Program-made: the position numbers and the translations under genes
The notes under the pieces: generated by a model
Databases searched by the model: none
Told to the model about the DNA's origin: nothing
Seen by the model: the letters and a program-made list of their open reading frames with translations, nothing else
From: Acidobacteriota bacterium
GTDB taxonomy: Bacteria; Acidobacteriota; Terriglobia; Terriglobales; SCQP01
Reading direction: 5' to 3'
Assembly: GCA_027459505.1 (NCBI GenBank)
Contig: DAIDIE010000014.1
Span: forward strand, 1 to 64,000
DNA length: 64,000 bases
Part shown: in pieces, positions 20,034 to 25,288 of the stretch
How the letters are laid out: every line of letters starts with the position of its first letter
How positions within the stretch are numbered: the first letter of the stretch is position 1

Positions 20034-21467
20034 ATGACCTCGCCAAACCAGCAGCAGGAAAACGCGCTTCCCCGCGAAATGCGGTTGTGGGACGTTGTGC
20101 TGTTCAACGTTGCCGCCGTTCTCGGGCCGCGCTGGGTGGCTGCCGCGGCGCATACCGGACCCAGTTCAATTTCCATATGGGTTCTGGCGGCGCTGATGTT
20201 TTTCCTGCCCTCCGCGGTGGTCATCATCGAACTCTCCACCCGCTATCCCTCCGAAGGGGGGCTGTACGTCTGGAGCCGTGAGGCGTTTGGCCCCTTCCAC
20301 GGCTTCATCGCCGGCTGGACCTACTGGATTTACACCATCATCTACTTCCCCGCCCTGCTCAACGCCAGTGTCGCCATGGCCGCCTACATGGGAGGCGAGC
20401 GTTGGGCGTGGCTGGCTGGCAACCGCGTTTACATCACCGCCGCTTCACTGCTGATGCTGGCAGTGGCTATCGGATTCAACCTGGTGGGCGTGCGGATCGG
20501 CAAATGGCTGGAAAACGCGGGCGGTATTGGCACCTATTTGCCTCTGGTATTGCTCGTGGTCTTTGCGCTGGTGTTTGTGCTGCACCGCGGCTCGGTAACG
20601 CATTTTTCCTGGCACAGCCTGGCTTTCCACTTTGACTCGGGGACAGTGAACTACTGGTCGCAGATTGCCTTTGCCTTCACCGGCCTGGAACTGGTCTGCG
20701 CCATGAGCGGAGAGATTCACGATCCGCGCCGCACCCTCCGCCGCAGCGCGTGGATTTCGGCGGTGGCGATCACGCTGATGTACGTGGCGGGAACCGCGGC
20801 GGTGCTGGGCGTGGAACCGGCTGCGCAGGTGGACGTGCGTACCGGTCCAGTGCAGGCGCTCACCCATGCCGCGTCGTTTTTCGGCGTGGCCTGGATCGCT
20901 ATTCTGGCGACGATTCTGCTTACCATCGGAAACACGGGCGGAGTGGGCACAACGGTGGCGGGGGTGGCCCGCATTCCGTTTGTGGCCGGCATTGACCGGT
21001 ATCTGCCGCCGGCGTTCGGCAAGATCCACCCGCGCTGGAAGACGCCCTACGTGGCCATGCTCGTGCAGGGCGTGCTCTCCGCCGTGCTGCTGATCCTCAG
21101 CCAGGTGGGAGAGACCGCCGCCAGCGGCTACCAGGTGCTGGTGGATGCAACCACGATCATGTACTTCATCCCCTTCCTGTACATGTTTCTGGCCATCATC
21201 GCCCTGCGGCGGCGGCCCGATCGCGGCGCACATCAGGAACACAGCCTGGTTCCGCTGGGCCACTTCGGCGTCTGGCTGTTTGGACTGCTGGGATTTCTGG
21301 TGACCGCGGTGTCTATTGTGCTGGCGCTGATTCCGCCCGCGGATGTGGGCTCGCGCCTGGTGTTCGAGTGCAAGATCATTGGCGGCTGCGTGGCGCTGGT
21401 TGCGGCCGGCCTGTTGCTGTACCGGCGCGGCCGGCGCGCGCCGGAGATGGCGGAGAGCCTGCCGTGA
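20034..21467 (+). CDS. APC-superfamily amino-acid permease
   Basis: 477 residues, about 12 hydrophobic spans. The first membrane segment has LWDVVLFNVAAVLGPRWVA, and the FTGLELVCAMSGEIHDPRR segment matches the conserved cytoplasmic loop of APC transporters (FEGLE...GEVKNPRR in relatives). It likely imports an amino acid by proton symport. Its last codons overlap the GTG start of the UvrC-like gene, implying one transcript. Confidence 0.8.
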   Translation: MTSPNQQQENALPREMRLWDVVLFNVAAVLGPRWVAAAAHTGPSSISIWVLAALMFFLPSAVVIIELSTRYPSEGGLYVWSREAFGPFHGFIAGWTYWIYTIIYFPALLNASVAMAAYMGGERWAWLAGNRVYITAASLLMLAVAIGFNLVGVRIGKWLENAGGIGTYLPLVLLVVFALVFVLHRGSVTHFSWHSLAFHFDSGTVNYWSQIAFAFTGLELVCAMSGEIHDPRRTLRRSAWISAVAITLMYVAGTAAVLGVEPAAQVDVRTGPVQALTHAASFFGVAWIAILATILLTIGNTGGVGTTVAGVARIPFVAGIDRYLPPAFGKIHPRWKTPYVAMLVQGVLSAVLLILSQVGETAASGYQVLVDATTIMYFIPFLYMFLAIIALRRRPDRGAHQEHSLVPLGHFGVWLFGLLGFLVTAVSIVLALIPPADVGSRLVFECKIIGGCVALVAAGLLLYRRGRRAPEMAESLP

Positions 21468-22543
21468 TCACAGTAGCGTTTGACCCGCTGGCCAGCGATG
21501 CGCAGAGCGCCTGGTGGGAACAGTTTCCCGACGCCGCGGCGGTTCTGCTGCTGGAGACTGGCACGGAAACGGCGGCAAGCGGCGAGCCTTACCTCACCTC
21601 CACGCGGCACCTGCGCAAGCGCCTGCAGCGGCTGTTAGCGCCCGCCCCGGAGGAGCGTACCCGCATCGACTTTTCCCGCATTACGCGCGCCATCCGCTAT
21701 TGGCCGGTATACTCCGAGTTTGAGAGCCGCTGGACCGTTTACCAGCGTACCCGCGAGCTTTTCCCCAACGACTACCGCAAGCGCCTGCGCATGCGGGCGC
21801 CAGTGTTTTTCAAACTGCATCTGGACGACCCCTATCCACGGGTTTCGGTGCGCCGCGGGCTGGGGCGGCCTCCAGCGCGTTTTTGGGGACCACTGCCCAG
21901 CCGCCGGGGCGCGGAAAGTCTGGCGGGAGAGGTGCTGGACCAGTTCCGTATACGGCGCTGCCCTGACGTGCTCCACCCCGATCCCAGTTTTCCCGGCTGC
22001 GTCTATTCGGAGATGAAGATGTGCCTGGCGCCCTGCCAGTGTGGCTGCACTGACGCGCAGTACCGCCGCGAATTGCAGCGTGTCAGCGACTTTCTTGCCA
22101 GCCGCGGAGCGCAATTGCGCGATCAACTGCTGCGTGAGCGGCAGGAGGCCAGCGAGCGGCTCGATTTCGAAGCCGCCGCCCGCGCCCACAAAAAGATCGA
22201 AAAGATTACTCCCGTGCTGCGGCGGCTGCCCGCGCACGCGCAATTTGTCGACCAGCTCAACGGCGCGCTGCTGCTGCCGGGGCCGGCGCCGCGGCAGACC
22301 GCCTTCCTGGTCAGGCAGGGGGGCATCTGCGCGATGGAGAGGCTAGAATGGCCGCAGAGCACGCCGGCAGCAGCCGAAGAAGCGCAAAGCCAGCGCGCCG
22401 CCGCCCTGCGGCATCTGCGTGAACGGCTGGCCTGCGCGCCGCTCCTCAGCAGGGCGGAACGCAACGAGCACCTGGCCTTGCTGCTGCGCTGTTGGAGTGC
22501 GAAAAAGCCGGAAGGGGAGTGGCTGGAACTCATCGGTGCCTGA
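21464..22543 (+). CDS. UvrC-like protein with degenerate GIY-YIG region
   Basis: 359 residues from GTG 21464, overlapping the permease stop by four bases. The order is that of UvrC: an N-terminal region where GIY-YIG would lie (AAVLLLETG then EPYLTSTRHLRKRLQRLL), a central part with CPDVLHPDPSFPGCVY, a Cys cluster (MCLAPCQCGC), and a UVR helix (RLDFEAAARAHKKIEKI). The GIY and YIG tripeptides are not recognisable and the C-terminal RNase H-like nuclease domain of real UvrC is absent. It may be a non-catalytic or repurposed relative, similar in size to Cho-type proteins. Confidence 0.65.
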   Translation: MITVAFDPLASDAQSAWWEQFPDAAAVLLLETGTETAASGEPYLTSTRHLRKRLQRLLAPAPEERTRIDFSRITRAIRYWPVYSEFESRWTVYQRTRELFPNDYRKRLRMRAPVFFKLHLDDPYPRVSVRRGLGRPPARFWGPLPSRRGAESLAGEVLDQFRIRRCPDVLHPDPSFPGCVYSEMKMCLAPCQCGCTDAQYRRELQRVSDFLASRGAQLRDQLLRERQEASERLDFEAAARAHKKIEKITPVLRRLPAHAQFVDQLNGALLLPGPAPRQTAFLVRQGGICAMERLEWPQSTPAAAEEAQSQRAAALRHLRERLACAPLLSRAERNEHLALLLRCWSAKKPEGEWLELIGA

Positions 22544-22573: not shown

Positions 22574-22879
22574 ATGGGATCGTCGGTAACCTGCTGGAAG
22601 TGTGGACAACAGTTGCAACTGCTCACCGGTGAAAAGGTGGGGAGGCGCGAGAGCTGCGAGAAGTGCGATGCAGACCTGCACGTCTGCCGCAACTGCCGCC
22701 ATTTCGATCCCACCTCGCACAACGAGTGCCGTGAAAATCAGGCGGAATGGGTGCGCTTCAAGGACAAGAACAATTACTGTGACTACTTTTCCCCAGTAGC
22801 CGTGGTAGGCCGTCCCGCCGGGCGCCAGGACCCAGCCGCCGACGCGCGCAAGAAACTCGACGACCTGTTCAAGTTCTGA
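22574..22879 (+). CDS. Small zinc-ribbon protein
   Basis: 101 residues. Two Cys-pair knuckles, CWKCGQ and CEKC, are followed by CRNCRHFDPTSHNECREN and NYCDYF, enough ligands for two metal sites. The C-terminus ends RKKLDDLFKF. There is no membrane segment. It follows the UvrC-like gene after 30 bp on the same strand and could be cotranscribed. Proteins of this layout are seen across several phyla without a known role. Confidence 0.65.
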   Translation: MGSSVTCWKCGQQLQLLTGEKVGRRESCEKCDADLHVCRNCRHFDPTSHNECRENQAEWVRFKDKNNYCDYFSPVAVVGRPAGRQDPAADARKKLDDLFKF

Positions 22880-23117: not shown

Positions 23118-23966
23118 TTAAGCCGCCGCCACGGGCGCGCTTTGCCGGGTGCGGAAGCGCCGCAGGCCACCGCCGCCGATCACGCCGCCGACGGCGGCGC
23201 AAATCAGCGTAATCAGCGCAAACCAGAAGCCCGCCCAAGAGGCGCGGGCGGCAACCGTTTTCGCGGTTGAAGCCACCTGCCCGCCGCTGACCCCCGCGAG
23301 CGGTGAATTGGCGTTCACCTGGTTAATGATGGCCGTGGCGCGGGCGTTGGGCAGGTTGGCGTCGCGCGCCAGAGTGCTGGCCGCGCCGGTGCGATCACCC
23401 GCCGCCAGACGCGCCTGCAGGGCGGTGGTCTGAGCCGCGCTCAACTGAATGCCGTTATTCTGCAGCACGGTTGGCAGGTCGCTGGTGCTGCCGGCCACGC
23501 TGGTTGCCGCCTGAGCCGCGGTGGGACTACTAGCGATGCTGCTTGCCGTTGTCAGGGCCGTTCCCGCCAGCAAAGCTCCCAGCGCAATGGCGCTCACCAT
23601 CAACAATCCCCACATGGTCACGCCCTTGAGCAGGCCAATGCGCCGCGTTGAAGCTGGGCTGCGTCCCGCCACCCAGCCACCAATAAACGTGGCAATCAGA
23701 AAGCAGATGCCGACCCAGATGCCCGTTCCGGCAGCGGCCGATTTCCAGGAGTTGGCGTCGACCGGGTTCACACTCGACAACCCCAGTCCCAGAACCAGGA
23801 ACATCAACAGGAGCGCCACGCCGATGGAAATGACGTAACCGGACCAGACGCCACTCCACTCCACCTTTTCTGGCGCGCCCGCCACCGGCATGTTGACCAC
23901 TTCGCCTTGCCGGTCGGTCTCCCGGCGTGAAAACATTCGCCGCTCAATACTTCGCACGGTGTTCAT
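23118..23966 (-). CDS. Membrane protein of unknown function
   Basis: 282 residues from ATG 23966 with GGAGGTG about 12 bp upstream; the longer frame is not supported. Hydrophobic segments lie near residues 43-66 (GYVISIGVALLLMFLVLGLG), 82-101, 112-135 and 250-272, giving four spans. Between spans 3 and 4 is an Ala/Thr/Gln-rich extracytoplasmic segment of about 110 residues. The C-terminus is basic (GGGLRRFRTRQ). I recognise no named family. Confidence 0.6.
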   Translation of the reverse strand: MNTVRSIERRMFSRRETDRQGEVVNMPVAGAPEKVEWSGVWSGYVISIGVALLLMFLVLGLGLSSVNPVDANSWKSAAAGTGIWVGICFLIATFIGGWVAGRSPASTRRIGLLKGVTMWGLLMVSAIALGALLAGTALTTASSIASSPTAAQAATSVAGSTSDLPTVLQNNGIQLSAAQTTALQARLAAGDRTGAASTLARDANLPNARATAIINQVNANSPLAGVSGGQVASTAKTVAARASWAGFWFALITLICAAVGGVIGGGGLRRFRTRQSAPVAAA

Positions 23967-24166
23967 AACGCTATTGACACCTCCTCGCCATTCTTGTGTT
24001 GGGCTAATAGCGTGCGATGCGTGCAGGTGGGGTGAAGGTGGGCAGTCGGCGCATTGGCACGGCGGAACTCCAAAATGGAAATGCGCAGCACCGTGGGGTG
24101 CCGCGCATCTTTTGGTCTCCCAAAACAGAGGTCGATTTACCGCTGCGCGATTTACCGCTGATCGAC

Positions 24167-25288
24167 CTACCGTTGATCGATGGCCACGTAATGCTGTGGC
24201 ACGGTGGGCCCGGTGTACTCCGAGCGCGGGCGGATGAGCCGGTTGTCGGAATACTGTTCCAGCACGTGCGCCGTCCATCCACTCATGCGTGAGAAGGCGA
24301 AAATCGGGGTAAACAGGTCGACGGGAATGCCGAGGTCGTAGTACATGGAAGCCGAGTAGAAGTCCACGTTGGGATTGAGCCCCTTTTCAGCCTTCACGAA
24401 CTCCTCGATCTGCCGCGACATTTTGTAGAGGTGGGTGTTGCCGGTGCGCTCTCCCAATTCACGCGACATCTGCCGCAGGTGCGTGGCCCGCGGATCTTCG
24501 GTGCGGTAGACGCGATGGCCAAAGCCGGGAACCTTCTTCTTTTCGGCAAACATCTGCTTGATAAACGCGATAGGGTCGTTGTTGCCGATTTTCAGCAGCA
24601 GGTGAATCACAGCCTCGTTGGCGCCGCCATGCAGCGGGCCTTTCAGCGCTCCCAGCGCGGAAGTCACAGCGGAGTAGATATCGCTCAAAGTGGCGGCGGT
24701 GACGCGGGCGGCGAAGGTGGAGGCGTTAAACTCGTGATCCGCGTGCAGGATGAGAGCGATATCCAGCGAACGCGCCGCCGTCGGGCTGGGACGCTCGCCG
24801 CTCAGCATGTACAGGAAATTGCCGGCCAGGTTGAGATCGGGGGCGGGAGCGATGGGCTGCTTGCCATTGCGGATGCGGTCAAAGGCGGCGATCAGGGTTC
24901 CGGTCTGGGCCACCAGGCGGCGCGCTTTGCGCTGGTTGGCGGCGGTGGACATGTCACCTGCCTCGGGATCGTAGAGCGCGAGCGCGGAGACCGCGGTGCG
25001 CAGCAGGTCCATGGGGGCCGACTTAGGTGGCAAGTGGCGCAGCAGATCCAGCAGCGGCGCGGGCACGGCCGCCGCGGCGCGCAGTTCCTGTTGCAACTGC
25101 TGCAGTTCACCCGACTTGGGCAGCCGCCCGTTCCACAGCAGAAAAGCGGTTTCCTCAAACGTCGAGCGTTCCGCCAGATCGTGAATGTCGTAGCCGCCGT
25201 AGGCCAGAATCCCTTTTTCGCCATCTATGAAACAAATCGAGGAAGGGGAGGCGACAATATCCGCCAACCCGCGCGAAGCTACGGTGGG
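24167..25288 (-). CDS. gltA: Citrate synthase (short, type-II-like)
   Basis: 373 residues from ATG 25288 (AGGAG upstream). The active-site residues are in place: LKGPLHGGANEAV (His), KVPGFGHRVYRTEDPR (His) and LNPNVDFYSASMYYDLG (Asp). The size is that of the short citrate/2-methylcitrate synthases, which condense acetyl-CoA (or propionyl-CoA) with oxaloacetate. There is no prp context, so citrate synthase of the TCA cycle is more likely, though 2-methylcitrate synthase cannot be excluded. Confidence 0.85.
   Translation of the reverse strand, partial: PTVASRGLADIVASPSSICFIDGEKGILAYGGYDIHDLAERSTFEETAFLLWNGRLPKSGELQQLQQELRAAAAVPAPLLDLLRHLPPKSAPMDLLRTAVSALALYDPEAGDMSTAANQRKARRLVAQTGTLIAAFDRIRNGKQPIAPAPDLNLAGNFLYMLSGERPSPTAARSLDIALILHADHEFNASTFAARVTAATLSDIYSAVTSALGALKGPLHGGANEAVIHLLLKIGNNDPIAFIKQMFAEKKKVPGFGHRVYRTEDPRATHLRQMSRELGERTGNTHLYKMSRQIEEFVKAEKGLNPNVDFYSASMYYDLGIPVDLFTPIFAFSRMSGWTAHVLEQYSDNRLIRPRSEYTGPTVPQHYVAIDQR

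Follow-up and report, generated by a model that had tools for sequence, protein, structure and literature searches.

A UvrC-like paralogue with a degenerate GIY-YIG nuclease centre retained across the Terriglobia

Introduction

In bacterial excision repair the cutting is known to be done by UvrC. The window (the whole stretch of DNA analysed, 64,000 nucleotides from an Acidobacteriota bacterium) holds a UvrC-like open reading frame that was originally predicted to keep the UVR helix and cysteine cluster of UvrC without recognisable nuclease centres, and which, judged by its sequence, may be a regulator or adaptor for UvrB.

Gene organization and domain content

The gene, its parts and its two flanking genes were placed as follows, with the basis of each assignment in brackets where one applies.

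20034–21467, + strand: APC permease gene, outside the system (Pfam AA_permease_2, 3.9e-55)
21452–21455, + strand: GGAG, likely ribosome-binding site, 8 nt 5' of the GTG (direct sequence reading)
21464–22543, + strand: UvrC-like ORF, 359 aa, GTG start, putatively nuclease-dead UvrC paralogue (family of 110 loci)
21506–21781, + strand: degenerate GIY-YIG domain, residues 15–106 (alignment with the organism's own UvrC, 1yd6 profile match, AF2/Foldseek/VIA)
21959–22048, + strand: cysteine cluster C166, C179, C187 and C191, at the UvrC 4Fe-4S positions, with the family-specific C195
22121–22207, + strand: UVR helix pair, residues 220–248 (Pfam UVR, 17.2 bits)
22241–22540, + strand: C-terminal domain, residues 260–359, shorter than in other members (AF2)
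22574–22879, + strand: gene for a Cys-rich (zinc-ribbon-like) protein of 101 aa, downstream, a neighbour only in f1, the source organism's own family

G+C by codon position in the UvrC-like ORF was coding-like (0.71/0.52/0.78). UVR was the sole Pfam match of the window protein, at 17.2 bits against a cut-off of 21.5, and the full-length UvrC of the same genome (4.06 Mb, 97% complete) likewise fell below this cut-off, at 17.0 bits. No Pfam match to PF08459 (RNase H) or HhH was obtained for the window protein; as first proposed, the ORF stops short of the catalytic RNase H region, and of HhH too. A search for a full uvrC elsewhere in the genome found one of 652 aa on a separate contig, and this one matches the RNase H, HhH and GIY-YIG families. 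The NCBIfam families matched by the window protein, 13 in number, were UvrC-like proteins only; TIGR00194 (uvrC) gave 75.1 bits against a cut-off of 285.45, and the best match was NF005906 (DEDD exonuclease plus UvrC-like), at 96 bits over residues 19–301.

Genomic context

The overlap with the permease gene, described in the original prediction as odd for a repair gene, proved to be an ordinary 4-bp coupling (21464–21467) of the stop/start type usual between coupled genes. Among 113 loci the permease adjoins the UvrC-like gene in the window only, apart from one weak match (L076), and because the adjacency is not conserved the overlap carries no weight and was dropped as a functional clue. Neighbours were counted after gene calling by a simple script: TldD/PmbA lay near the UvrC-like gene at 46 of 81 loci and an IstB/DnaC-like ATPase at 29 of 101. 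At loci L034–L113 the gene often follows closely 3' of the TldD/PmbA peptidase gene (commonly by 5–25 bp) or of the IstB/DnaC-like ATPase gene. Gene neighbours in general were dropped as a clue to function, since, common as these two are, no conserved repair neighbour was found among the family loci and no neighbour was common to different orders.

The 101-aa Cys-rich protein was found in all 14 f1 genomes (51–70% identity in the other 13, G001–G013), its gene lying close to one for a membrane protein resembling that encoded at 23118–24278 in 6 of 10 genomes examined; in the sister family f2, distant matches (39–42%) were found in 5 of 46 genomes. Its candidacy as an obligate partner was dropped, as only 3 of those 14 f1 genomes have the UvrC-like gene. 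No UvrC-like remnant was seen beside the Cys-rich gene in 10 of the 11 f1 genomes that lack the gene (G012 was left out).

Distribution and descent

Among 60 relatives searched, family-grade matches (E ≤ 1.8e-38) were found in 49, and in f2 all 46 genomes carry the short gene and, in addition, a long frame of UvrC size that also matches. In a sample of the class (E ≤ 1e-45), matches were found in 196 of 250 genomes, 175 of the 203 good ones, and 70 of 95 genera. A sample of the phylum (396 genomes, same threshold) gave 47 matches, all within the organism's own class; the best match outside it (2.3e-40) was to a 602-aa frame, which is UvrC-sized. Among the 80 loci retained of 123 found, the named relatives are all Acidobacteria/Terriglobia; conserved members include those of Acidipila rosea (L109) and Occallatibacter savannae (L067). 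In a 45-row tree, rooted at its midpoint only, the 24 family rows lie on one side of a branch with support 98/99, and the f4, f41 and UvrC rows each branch apart. The family is monophyletic and did not arise through recent shortening of the local uvrC. Profile–profile comparison of UvrC (TIGR00194) with the family aligned 270 columns (E 3.5e-28).

The GIY-YIG nuclease centre

The 110 members were aligned at the GIY-YIG positions, taken as Y19, Y29, G31, K32, R39, E76 and N88 in T. maritima numbering. In the window copy these read Y19→L28, Y29=Y43, G31→T45, K32→S46, R39=R53, E76→V92 and N88→Y104. Across the family, the catalytic Glu76 position is occupied by L (71), Q (34), M (3), V (1) or F (1) and in no member by Glu; the first Tyr is replaced by F in 105 members and L in 3, with Y kept in 2; and the Asn88 position holds Y (50), A (37), V (9), S (9) or others. 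The second Tyr is kept in 108 of 110 members and Arg39 in 109, the Lys32 position is K in 59 and R in 43, and that of Gly31 is S in 55, G in 35 and T in 15. Each of the 16 UvrC controls had all eight GIY-YIG positions intact.

The register was set by a MAFFT alignment and by a profile match to UvrC of B. caldotenax that runs without gaps across the helix of the catalytic Glu. The hhalign register differs by one residue, and the residue there is Y, F, L or C in the 110 members, never Glu; a displaced catalytic Glu was ruled out, any Glu at residues 89–95 occurring in 12 of 110. The catalytic Glu is also absent from four f4 proteins and from six additional members that belong to other families of the class; in a seventh, L161, the contig ends ahead of the GIY-YIG Glu region. 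Pfam GIY-YIG (E ≤ 0.01) was matched by none of 27 family members, the organism's own UvrC giving 1.4e-9. The domain is thus degenerate, and the case that might have overturned the original prediction, a full catalytic set in divergent form, was not seen in the alignment of 110 members.

Cysteine cluster, UVR helix and predicted structure

The proposed retention of the cysteine cluster and UVR helix was borne out. C166, C179, C187 and C191 occupy the positions of the four UvrC cysteines, without exception among the 110 members; the added C195 is present in 109, and the window copy has a further extra cysteine, C193. A 4Fe-4S cluster in UvrC is reported in the accessible text of PMC8837605 and PMC9426483, and a part of it in dsDNA binding in the latter; the family may carry such a cluster as well. 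A UVR match at E ≤ 0.01 was obtained for 20 of 27 members, and in the window protein the match scores as in the organism's own UvrC.

An AF2 model built from 27 sequences had a mean pLDDT of 87.8, with the cysteine region modelled poorly (blocks at 52–71). Its best PDB match, and the only plausible one, was 1yd6, the GIY-YIG domain of B. caldotenax UvrC (Foldseek probability 0.96, E 0.27), and VIA gave Z 5.5 against this entry (3.3 Å, 85 residues aligned), followed by T. maritima entries at Z 4.2–4.5. These Z values are middling alone but agree with the sequence evidence, and in the model the GIY-YIG fold is kept. The C-terminal domain was modelled as strands (266–295) followed by helices (301–344). 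When the family C-terminal domain was modelled separately (pLDDT 80.9), no structural match exceeded Z 4.0 and none reached E ≤ 0.001; compared with the first RNase H-like domain of UvrC (PF22920), the strand hairpin alone aligned, weakly (hhalign probability 3.7, E 0.012). The family has a C-terminal motif of its own, of which the window copy lacks the W-Y-Y-R part, stopping before the motif end.

Comparison with known UvrC-like proteins

With UvrC (TIGR00194) the family shares the GIY-YIG fold, the Cys4 cluster, the UVR helix and the first strands after that helix, but the window protein has 359 aa against 652 in the organism's own UvrC, there is no catalytic RNase H and no HhH, and the catalytic residues are lost. 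PRK07883, a DEDD exonuclease joined to a UvrC-like part ('Cho-like+Exo' in PMC1564403), resembles it in that NF005906 is the best NCBIfam match of the window protein and has the lowest best E-value among the families matched by all 27 members; the N-terminal exonuclease domain is however absent here, the match covering profile positions 210–488 of 563. A special kinship with PRK07883 is unsupported, as the same profile gives true UvrC 229 bits. Cho (NF007833) is matched weakly in 18 of 27 members but is not among the families matched by the window protein, and UVR is present here, which may stand in place of the C-terminal domain that Cho has by the description in the accessible text of PMC1564403.

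The architecture resembles that of the 'Cho-like' class of PMC1564403, given in its accessible text as GIY-YIG, C4 and UvrB-binding regions without EndoV. One such protein is in Gloeobacter violaceus, and those of Actinobacteria are joined to an exonuclease; UvrC-like satellites without EndoV are listed there too. The Gloeobacter protein, with no RNase H or HhH, is alike in architecture as described; catalytic residues were compared for the present family, in which they are lost family-wide. To the extent of that text, the architecture is already known. Catalytic loss throughout the family and fixation throughout the class appear unreported in the literature searched, which takes in few subscription papers.

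Proposed function and alternative explanations

The explanation we favour, and to which we give about an even chance, is that the family is a fixed, vertically kept Terriglobia paralogue of UvrC which is nuclease-dead and interacts with DNA, with a UVR partner (UvrB, for example), or with both. Here the GIY-YIG fold, retained with its phosphate-side residues (second Tyr, Arg and mostly Lys/Arg), would form with the Fe-S region a DNA-binding half, the UVR helix would dock on UvrB or another UVR protein, and the paralogue would occupy UvrB–DNA complexes or DNA junctions without cutting. In favour of this reading are the lost catalytic residues in a retained fold, the four invariant cysteines, the presence across the class as one clade and the full uvrC alongside it in the genome; against it count the lack of a conserved repair neighbour, the lost R-D pair of the UVR helix, the poorly modelled cysteine region and the deviations of the window copy. 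It could then compete with real UvrC or hand over to it, restrain it, or protect intermediates, or it could hold a nuclease-free job like that of H. pylori UvrC in DNA import. A cut-free role has precedent, because H. pylori UvrC mutated in its catalytic (both nuclease) and DNA-binding sites keeps its effect on DNA import (accessible text of PMC9426483). A class-wide paralogue of this kind would be a natural separation-of-function form made of the non-cutting parts only, and culturable Acidobacteria would then allow a direct test of the nuclease-independent roles of UvrC and of how UvrB is controlled.

Alternatively, though this seems unlikely, the family may be a DNA-binding Fe-S protein uncoupled from UvrB, its UVR helix homodimerising or binding another UVR protein. 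After the UVR core (FExAA), 14 UvrCs have an R-D pair without exception; in the family the Arg is replaced by an invariant His and the next residue varies, so the partner of the helix could differ from UvrB; the extra near-invariant cysteine, the family-specific C-terminal motif and the absence of repair genes from the neighbourhood point the same way. Against it, the core itself is kept (F235 in 109, E236 in 110, A238 in 110 and A239 in 106 of 110 members).

We think it improbable that the non-cutting work of UvrC has been split into a separate protein, a dedicated nuclease-free UvrC kept class-wide; such work might be the holding of UvrB–DNA complexes or the capping of D-loops or other junctions, a role that has been proposed for the UvrC of H. 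pylori, perhaps redox-switched by the Fe-S cluster. It is equally doubtful that the family has kept its cutting activity as a Cho-like enzyme whose active site was rebuilt, with E41 or E87, for instance, as metal ligand. The kept phosphate-side residues, the near-invariance of E41 (101/110) and E87 (103/110), and a domain order equal to that of the 'Cho-like' class (PMC1564403) would suit such an enzyme, but E87 aligns gap-free with a second, non-catalytic Glu that UvrC also has and not with the catalytic one, the first Tyr and the Asn are lost along with the catalytic Glu, and the Pfam GIY-YIG profile fails to match any of the 27 members.

Within f1 the gene is absent from 11 of 14 genomes, 6 of these 11 being at least 95% complete, and the three f1 copies are the most deviant of the 110 members: the window copy departs at 13 of 62 near-invariant positions (the median of the 110 members is 1), and the related L011 and L013 at 15 of 63 and 18 of 64. 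The gene evolves fast in f1, and its function in the source organism may be altered or fading, because of those 13 changes and the early cut in the C-terminal motif. That it is a decaying leftover there is very unlikely: the changed positions in all three copies, the patchy presence in f1 and the broken motif would fit decay, but the frame is open with the full domain order and a coding-like base pattern, all cysteines are kept, and GGAG stands 5' of the start.

Other UvrC-like proteins in Acidobacteria

Further short or altered UvrC-like proteins were encountered during the searches. The proteins of f4, a family of the same class, (L151–L154) are a distinct UvrC-like paralogue with the cysteines and a UVR-like helix and no catalytic Glu, branching apart from the main family. 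Genomes of another acidobacterial family, f41, carry separate short UvrC-like proteins (L158:1177-2706, −; L169:349-2448, +; L171:1132-2169, −) that lack both GIY-YIG tyrosines and the UVR helix; they may keep the catalytic Glu, the alignment being read as placing a Glu one position on from the catalytic site. In genomes G120 and G258 the f41 short gene lies about 20 kb from a full uvrC on the same contig. Locus L173 (G380:C15:491585) is a UvrC form whose frame has no GIY-YIG domain but retains RNase H-like sequence; a full-length uvrC is present in its genome as well.
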